From contig NZ_CP034145.1 of NCBI RefSeq assembly GCF_003856835.1, positions 2,356,001 to 2,420,000 on the forward strand: DNA of 64,000 bases, written 5' to 3'. How positions within the stretch are numbered: the stretch's first letter is position 1; the number at the start of each line of letters is the position of its first letter. This DNA comes from Haloplanus aerogenes. Its GTDB lineage: Archaea; Halobacteriota; Halobacteria; Halobacteriales; Haloferacaceae. The notes under the pieces are model-generated. The model saw only the letters and a program-made list of their open reading frames with translations. It was not told where the DNA came from and did no database searches. A program made the translations under genes and the position numbers. Below are positions 53,617 to 55,523 of this stretch, one piece after another.

Positions 53617-54027
53617 ATGAGCTACGAACTCCGCCCCCACACGGCCGACGTGGCCGTCGCGGCGACCGGCGCGGACCTCGGGGAGACGTTCGCCGCCGCC
53701 GCCGACGGCCTCGCCGCCGCGATGTGTGACCACGTCCCCGAGACGGGCGACCGCTTCTCCTTCACCGTCCGGGCCGAAGGGCTCGAAGCCCTCCTGTTCG
53801 ACTATCTCGACCAGCTCATCTACGAACGCGACGTGCGGGGCGTTCTCCCCGTCGACAACGAGGCGACGGTGCGCGAGGCGGGCGAGGAGTGGGTGATCGA
53901 GGCGAGCACCCGCGGCGTCCCACTCGCGGACGTGACCGCTCGGGACGTGAAGGCCGTGACGTACTCGGAGATGCGGGTGGAGGAGAGCGAAGACGGCTGG
54001 GAGGCCTACGTCGTCCTCGACGTGTAG
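53617..54027 (+). CDS. Archease, activator of the RtcB RNA ligase
   Basis: A 136-residue archease. SYELRPHTADVAVAATGADL contains the conserved HTAD (metal-binding Asp), FAAAADGLAAAMCD follows, then LLFDYLDQLIYERDV and the C-terminal KAVTYSEMRVEE with its acidic metal ligands. Archease speeds guanylylation of RtcB and widens its nucleotide use. It is 35 bases upstream of rtcB on the same strand, the classic gene pair. Length is typical. Confidence 0.93.
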   Translation: MSYELRPHTADVAVAATGADLGETFAAAADGLAAAMCDHVPETGDRFSFTVRAEGLEALLFDYLDQLIYERDVRGVLPVDNEATVREAGEEWVIEASTRGVPLADVTARDVKAVTYSEMRVEESEDGWEAYVVLDV

Positions 54028-54062: not shown

Positions 54063-55523
54063 ATGACCACACGCGAGTTCGACGGCATCCAGCTCGAACG
54101 AGTTCGGGAGTTCGTCTGGGAGATTCAACGGGAGGGCGACATGCGCGTCCCCGCGCGAGTGCTGGCGAGCGAGGCGCTGCTGGAGGAGATTGGCGAGGAC
54201 AAGACGCTCCAGCAGTTGAAGAACGCGACGCACCTCCCCGGGATCACCGGCCACGCCATCTGCATGCCGGACGGGCATCAGGGGTACGGCTTCCCCGTCG
54301 GCGGCGTGGGAGCGACGGATACGGAGAACGGCTGTATATCGCCCGGTTCTGTGGGTTACGACATTAATTGCGGAGTTAGAATGATGAAAACAAATCTGGC
54401 CTACGACGACGTGCAGGGCCACGAGGAGGAACTCGTGAACGCCCTCTTCGCCAACGTCCCGTCGGGCCTCGGCGGCGGCGGCGTCGTCGAGAGCGACATC
54501 GACACCGTCGAGGCCGTCCTCTCCCGCGGCGTCGACTGGGCGCTCGAGGAGGGGTGGGCCGTCGAGGAGGATCTGACCCACTGCGAGGACGAGGGCGTCC
54601 GCCCGGACGCCGACCCGAGCGCCGTCTCCCAGAAGGCGAAGGATCGAGGAAAGAATCAGCTCGGGAGTCTGGGCAGCGGCAACCACTTCCTCGAAGTCCA
54701 GCGCGTGACCGACGTGTACCGCGACGACGTGGCCGACGCGTACGGTCTCGAACCGAATCAGATCGTCGTCCTGATCCACTGCGGGAGCCGGGGGCTGGGG
54801 CACCAGACCTGCACCGACTACCTGCGAAAGATCGAGAAGCGCCACGGCGACCTCCTGGCCGAACTGCCGGACAAGGAACTCGCGGCCGCGCCCGCGGGCT
54901 CCGAACTCGCGGAGGAGTACTACGGCGCGATGTGTGCCTGCATCAACTTCGCGTGGGTGAACCGCCAGTTGATCATGCACCGCGTCCGGCAGGTGTTCGA
55001 GCGCGTCTTCGACCGTTCGTGGGAGTCGATGGACATGCACCTGCTGTACGACGTGGCGCACAACATCGCGAAGAAGGAGATTCATACGGTCGACGGCGAG
55101 GAGCGCGAACTCTACGTCCACCGCAAGGGGGCGACGCGGGCGTTCCCGGCGGGCCACCCCGAAGTCCCGTCCGCCTACCGCGACGTGGGCCAGCCGATCA
55201 TCATCCCCGGGAGCATGGGCGCGGGGAGCTACGTCCTTCGGGGTGGCGAGTCGTCGATGGACCTCACGTTCGGCTCCACCGCCCACGGCGCCGGCCGGCT
55301 CATGAGCCGGACGCAGGCCAAACAGGAGTTCTGGGGCGAGACGGTACAGGACGAACTCCGCGAGCAGAATCAGGTGTACGTCAAGGCCCAGAGCGGCGCG
55401 ACGGTGGCCGAGGAAGCCCCCGGCGTCTACAAGGACGTGGACGAGGTGGTGCGCGTCTCTGACGCCCTCGGCATCGGTGACAAGGTGGCGCGGACGTATC
55501 CGGTCTGTAACATCAAGGGCTAG
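54063..55523 (+). CDS. rtcB: tRNA-splicing RNA ligase RtcB (3'-phosphate/5'-OH)
   Basis: A 486-residue GTP-dependent RNA ligase that joins tRNA exons and repairs RNA. ICMPDGHQGYGFPVGGVG, SPGSVGYDINCGVRMM (metal-ligand C103), LGSLGSGNHFLEVQ, VLIHCGSRGLGHQ and the guanylylated His in STAHGAGRLMSRTQAK are all present; YPVCNIKG ends the protein as usual. Start ATG 54063. Codons 94-113 around C103 are unusually AT-rich (ATT AAT, GTT AGA, AAA ACA AAT) for this genome. C103 is the position where inteins sit in some archaeal RtcB proteins (see findings). Confidence 0.95.
   Translation: MTTREFDGIQLERVREFVWEIQREGDMRVPARVLASEALLEEIGEDKTLQQLKNATHLPGITGHAICMPDGHQGYGFPVGGVGATDTENGCISPGSVGYDINCGVRMMKTNLAYDDVQGHEEELVNALFANVPSGLGGGGVVESDIDTVEAVLSRGVDWALEEGWAVEEDLTHCEDEGVRPDADPSAVSQKAKDRGKNQLGSLGSGNHFLEVQRVTDVYRDDVADAYGLEPNQIVVLIHCGSRGLGHQTCTDYLRKIEKRHGDLLAELPDKELAAAPAGSELAEEYYGAMCACINFAWVNRQLIMHRVRQVFERVFDRSWESMDMHLLYDVAHNIAKKEIHTVDGEERELYVHRKGATRAFPAGHPEVPSAYRDVGQPIIIPGSMGAGSYVLRGGESSMDLTFGSTAHGAGRLMSRTQAKQEFWGETVQDELREQNQVYVKAQSGATVAEEAPGVYKDVDEVVRVSDALGIGDKVARTYPVCNIKG

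Follow-up and report, generated by a model that had tools for sequence, protein, structure and literature searches.

The rtcB gene and its rare-codon patch

The DNA analysed here is a 64-kb stretch of the Haloplanus aerogenes genome, referred to below as the window. On its forward strand it carries rtcB (54063..55523), which encodes an RNA-splicing ligase of 486 aa (Pfam PF01139, E 6e-165). The gene is intein-free and is present as a single copy in its own genome, where no rtcB intein was found. Directly 5' of it, on the same strand, lies an archease gene (53617..54027; Pfam PF01951, E 1.4e-33; start codon as deduced from the list of ORFs), mentioned as context only; archease is the usual partner of RtcB. 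The insertion point of the RtcB intein, empty in the window, is N102^C103 (54368..54369, + strand; ^ marks the insertion point), and 49 unique carriers have an intein of 427-491 aa at exactly this position. C103, a metal ligand at the active site of RtcB, is encoded by TGC (54369-54371). For intein-containing RtcB, a model exists at NCBI (NF038162), in which the intein separates N from C in DINCGVR; the window rtcB, with its uninterrupted reading frame, does not belong to this class.

An earlier, sequence-only reading had pointed to an AT-rich patch in rtcB, and both its coordinates (54330..54401, + strand) and its sequence proved correct. The patch spans codons 90-113 (GGC TGT ATA TCG CCC GGT TCT GTG GGT TAC GAC ATT AAT^TGC GGA GTT AGA ATG ATG AAA ACA AAT CTG GCC). 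Its GC content is 0.48 (90-bp window), compared with about 0.70 in the surroundings, and GC3, calculated in 22-codon windows, reaches its minimum for rtcB at codon 90, with a value of 0.41 that was obtained in 0 of 5000 shuffles; the next minimum elsewhere in the gene is 0.73. The rare-codon score of the best 16-codon window was z = 9.0, against a gene-wide maximum of 7.07 in 1000 within-gene permutations of synonymous codons, and the patch ranked first among 13,056 codon windows from 51 ORFs of the 64-kb stretch. The codon fractions in these ORFs are 1.4% for AGA, 3.1% for TCT, 3.8% for ATA, 4.5% for GTT, 4.8% for ACA, 9% for ATT and 10% for AAT. Thus, ATT, AAT, GTT, AGA and ACA, which had been named as rare, are indeed low, whereas AAA, named together with them, accounts for 34% and is not rare. 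The same is true of TGT (54%), and these two codons therefore contribute nothing to the patch.

The centre of the patch lies at most 3 bp from 54368^54369, which bears out its earlier placement at the intein site. Codons 100-106 (positions -2 to +4; 54360..54380, + strand) form the putative core of a homing-endonuclease target, as the sole stretch with an approximately 2-4 fold difference between intein-free and carrier alleles in synonymous mismatches. The window reads GAC ATT AAT TGC GGA GTT AGA at these codons, whereas the carrier consensus is GAC ATC AAC TGC GGC GTC CGG. Across codons 98-106, the window target has 7 nucleotide mismatches compared with a mean of 1.9 for the carriers, and the core motif GYDINCGVRM is unchanged. 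No Rfam match, i.e. no known RNA element, was found. Two constant odd codons, located 7-11 codons 5' of the site, fall outside the variable patch: Cys91 (54333-54335) is TGT in about 86% of rtcB genes, in intein-free and carrier alleles alike, and Gly95 (54345-54347) is GGA in 58-76% of them, although GGA makes up 10% of the Gly codons in the window genes.

The RtcB intein and the hotspot at its insertion site

The rtcB intein was found in 45 of the 392 genomes of the order and in 29 of 90 genera, including three species of the window's genus, and its presence or absence changed at least 34 times along the rtcB tree. It matches the Pfam family Intein_splicing and, with TIGR01445 and TIGR01443, the splicing motifs. 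Its endonuclease is barely detected by sequence profiles (LAGLIDADG_3, E 0.07). The structural model of the intein (pLDDT 91) matches the homing-endonuclease inteins PI-SceI and TliVMA (E 3e-16) and also the free-standing LAGLIDADG enzyme I-Tsp061I, and it contains two motif regions, in which Asp154 and Glu261 are invariant. Judged by its splicing domain and the modeled endonuclease fold, the carriers' RtcB intein is a LAGLIDADG homing intein with a predicted endonuclease. Among the 24 haloarchaeal intein alleles of a published inventory, rtcB is not listed (PMC4071816). The mcm gene of the window's own lineage (L327, genome G000) is itself occupied by inteins, one of 188 aa at site A and one of 523 aa at site B, and the DP2 reading frame of the same genome is intein-sized (1840 aa), indicating that the lineage is exposed to inteins.

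To compare alleles, the inteins were spliced out in silico and the codons of 245 unique rtcB genes were mapped onto the window protein; 230 of them, 185 intein-free and 45 carriers, were kept on the basis of high GC3. Genomes G098-G100 and G159-G161 and most of genus code g41 gave matches to this RtcB no better than about E 1e-5, which would fit absence of the usual rtcB or its replacement by a distant paralogue. At the intein site, z>5 was reached by 47 of the 185 intein-free genes compared with 2 of the 45 carriers, and z>6 by 33 compared with none. The background per equal block elsewhere in rtcB is about 0.3-0.35% at z>5 and 0.02% at z>6, and within-gene synonymous permutation gave on average 0.65 of 185 genes with z>5 at the site (maximum 2). 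The intein-site block ranks first of the 33 blocks of rtcB. On the tree, the z>6 patch state changed at least 27 times. Between sister intein-free genes, the synonymous difference is 0.292 at the site compared with 0.220 overall, which makes the site their most divergent 16-codon block (18 of 90 pairs with z>2, none below -2), with bursts of 7-9 synonymous changes within 13-14 codons. Carrier pairs have no such excess (0.239 at the site and 0.256 overall). The rtcB patches look like repeated, partly convergent recoding.

Carriers keep the canonical, GC-rich codons GAC ATC AAC^TGC GGC GTC beside the intein. Measured against the carrier consensus, intein-free alleles have more synonymous mismatches than carriers at codons -2 to +4 (0.38 vs 0.18 at N102 and 0.14 vs 0.04 at C103, for instance), whereas elsewhere the ratio is 1.07. 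This stretch of about 21 bp has the size of a LAGLIDADG core. Rare codons further out, from about -10 to +9, are present to some degree in both carriers and intein-free alleles. In 29 phylogenetically independent carrier/free pairs, the carrier never had a z>6 patch, and the intein-free member had one in 4.6 pairs on average (median p 0.06); the direction of the contrast is consistent, and its strength after phylogenetic correction is marginal. One Haloplanus carrier, L111, shares the outer codons GGT TCT GTG GGT, AGA and AAA ACA with the intein-free window allele and with the intein-free L002 and L003, but its core, ATC AAC^TGC GGC GTG, is canonical. L111 nests, with weak support, among patch alleles. 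Therefore, either the core is restored by short co-conversion during homing, or the patches are not absolute barriers.

Other intein-target genes and control genes

The link between rare codons and the intein site, drawn earlier for the window rtcB, holds and generalizes, since rare-codon hotspots occur at the insertion sites of four genes. In 58 mcm genes, with the intein sites located from carriers, blocks with z>5 were found at site A (GTGK^S) in 24 genes and at site B (AGL^T) in 14; the third and fourth sites have weaker blocks nearby, and the remainder of the gene has few. The intein-site block ranks first of 50 in mcm and first of 66 in polB, where the top block is at YGDTD^S and exceeds z>6 in 7 of 25 genes. 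PolII-DP2 was added as a test of the hotspot idea beyond rtcB, mcm and polB. Among its 1200 codons, only the blocks at codons 912-964, which are contiguous, contain at least two genes with z>5; they peak at block 938 (9 of 20 genes), and the intein gap in three carriers is at 951^952. The mean profile, calculated without pre-selecting alleles, has a footprint of about ±10 codons in rtcB and polB and is somewhat wider at mcm site A and in DP2.

Neither control gave a comparable signal: rpoB, which has no inteins in this set, showed no recurring z>6 block, and the second ribonucleotide reductase no internal hotspot. Windows near the ORF starts of polB and of this reductase, where the frames extend into upstream non-coding DNA, were excluded.

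The contrast between occupied and empty sites was not reproduced throughout mcm. At site A, z>4 was reached by 7 of 26 occupied and 16 of 32 empty sites (p 0.12), and at sites B and C occupied and empty sites did not differ in the patch. The confinement of the patch to empty sites is thus a trend in rtcB and fails as a universal rule in mcm. Within the occupied genes at the site A core (among L310-L347), those with mini-inteins are near-normal, with a mean z of 0.77 (n=12) compared with 2.34 (n=14) for those with full-length inteins, a difference that possibly reflects relaxation after loss of the endonuclease.

Proposed recoding of an empty target and alternative explanations

We consider it somewhat probable that the patch in the window is a recoded, empty homing-endonuclease target, where cutting would favour synonymous changes by selection or drive them in some other way. 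Inteins that encode a LAGLIDADG endonuclease would circulate among haloarchaea, and the endonuclease of a passing intein would cut intein-free rtcB around N102^C103. As this target encodes an invariant active site, only silent changes would be affordable; repeated exposure would favour alleles rich in synonymous mismatches, and such alleles would survive and remain empty. Changes would be limited to synonymous positions because the active site fixes the protein sequence, and the mismatches would be mostly rare, A/T-ending codons because the normal codons of the genome end in G or C. The starting points of this explanation are the observed position, synonymy and recurrence of the patches, their replication in other intein-target genes and the carrier contrast in rtcB; cutting as the cause, and a lowering of cleavage by the mismatches, would connect them. 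As expected of a resistant allele, the patch lies at the insertion site, the element is absent from the genome but circulates in relatives, and the DNA differs while the protein is kept. On the basis of its sequence, the window target is therefore a candidate for resistance to the endonuclease. Against the proposal stand the phylogenetically marginal contrast, the frequent patches at occupied mcm sites and the outer rare codons shared by L111.

Experiments in Haloferax bear on this explanation in both directions. When plasmids with mcm targets were exposed to the endonucleases, escapers with point mutations arose, and 3 of 5 survivors kept a natural, diverged homologous site unaltered; however, several substitutions in a homologous site, most of them synonymous, did not prevent cutting by the MCM endonucleases (PMC10643990). 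Single synonymous target changes have also been reported as tolerated (PMC3024317). Since several synonymous differences can leave cutting intact, many may be needed, which would explain patches with many changes.

The sequence-only reading had offered other origins for the patch: a co-conversion tract or the scar of an excised intein, a horizontally acquired tract, or a site kept similar to a homing-endonuclease target. The last runs opposite to what was seen, as patch alleles without an intein have diverged from the sequence of the carriers. That the patch was left by intein gain and loss, or was acquired, appears very unlikely to us and is largely disfavoured by the data. Co-conversion predicts that carriers share the codons, yet none of them has a strong patch and their cores are canonical, so the comparison of rtcB with and without inteins that had been proposed as a check leaves co-conversion unsupported. 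The Haloplanus carrier with the window's outer codons and a canonical core would fit co-conversion over a very short tract during homing. Several rare codons and the NLA residue are common to the window and Natrinema limicola (L086), a resemblance that could point to an imported tract, but among 49 patch alleles the 999 pairs whose remaining rtcB sequence is distant shared on average 10.0 identical codons of 22, compared with 10.5 expected from column-permuted alleles (maximum 18, with a 95% limit of 19). A single imported tract is disfavoured because unrelated patch alleles have no common haplotype; the look-alike pairs L005/L058 and window/L086, considered as shared imports, are as a class not beyond chance. 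A viral donor was likewise rejected: no relative was found in the viral_contigs set, and the single close match in the phage collection is a record of 8.6 kb labelled Halorubrum virus BJ1 (AM491333.1:5903-7408), whose RtcB is 76% identical to that of the window and is probably host flank. For an excision scar we found no positive evidence, and synonymous, AT-ending changes would not be expected of such a scar, although some lineages may once have carried the rtcB intein.

An intein-independent constraint, such as translation pausing, mRNA structure or an internal promoter, acting at conserved motifs into which inteins happen to insert, seems to us quite unlikely. Intein sites do fall in conserved motifs, carriers also show rare codons in the outer flanks, and codons 91 and 95 are odd in carriers and intein-free alleles alike; however, hotspots are lacking at other conserved motifs of rtcB, mcm, DP2 and rpoB, and no Rfam match was found. 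The earlier reading held that AT-rich codons in intein-free relatives with no intein history would imply a constraint of this kind. Such codons are present in intein-free relatives, but they vary, and 25 of the 185 intein-free alleles are wholly canonical across codons 98-106, which disfavours a fixed RNA or promoter element. A process of mutation linked to cutting, or of short-patch repair, in which resistance is not selected is unlikely in our view; repair would be inaccurate or use a divergent template, and only synonymous changes would survive. It predicts the same location and footprint as recoding of the target under selection, and it agrees with the bursts of changes between sisters and with the point mutations seen in endonuclease-exposed targets (PMC10643990). 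Errors alone, however, predict neither graded accumulation nor that strong patches are almost lacking among rtcB carriers, and shared templates were not found among the distant pairs of patch alleles.

Recoding of empty targets would have parallels in known systems. In synthetic homing gene drives, functional target-site resistance arises through coding-neutral variants that escape the nuclease; the rtcB patch likewise would be a coding-neutral target variant, but natural, archaeal and recurrent across taxa and genes. In wild yeast, degenerate VDE targets in VMA1 were reportedly described by Gimble in 2001. There, too, the host gene of an intein occurs in empty form and its recognition sequence has diverged, but this concerns a single locus, whereas in haloarchaea several genes carry a rare-codon signature. 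In Torulaspora, a working FBA1 allele resists the intein-related LAGLIDADG endonuclease of WHO elements via target differences (PMC7282813); in that system the element carries the resistant segment along, whereas the rtcB patch is found in element-free alleles and its resistance is presumptive. Haloferacales mcm alleles that resist the MCM-d intein (PMC10643990) are similar in being haloarchaeal, located at an intein site and empty, but in that case a proline blocks splicing rather than recognition, and the rtcB changes are largely synonymous codons.

In the literature searched, we found no published description of a rare-codon signature at empty intein sites. Inteins occupy active sites whose protein sequence cannot change, and the host escapes known so far are loss and amino-acid blocks. 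We give about even chances to a broader, silent immunity in haloarchaea, in which empty targets in the essential genes rtcB, mcm, polB and DP2 have repeatedly acquired rare synonymous codons, imposed by inteins; the patches would then be a record of past exposure, from which the footprints of endonucleases and so far unrecognised homing sites could be predicted. If this is true, synonymous positions would hold selectable immunity, the homing cycle would gain an evolving resistant state, and scans for codon patches could map endonuclease footprints and earlier invasions. Such alleles would also be natural precedents of the target-site resistance that concerns gene drives.

Two minor hotspots were observed outside the established intein sites. 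In polB (L348-L372), codons 301-355 form a second hotspot around DVLTGWNFEDFD, seen in 3 of 25 genes and with z>6 in two blocks; a block near TGWNFEDFD has three genes at z>5. We know of no intein at this location, which could mark an unrecognised homing site. In the ribonucleotide reductase RIR1 (codons 418-460, L421-L437), a weak hotspot was seen in 3 of 17 genes at HRILATNPCGEQPL (ATNPCGEQ). This stretch may be another intein target; because the intein position there is not established, RIR1 was left out of the count of hotspot genes.
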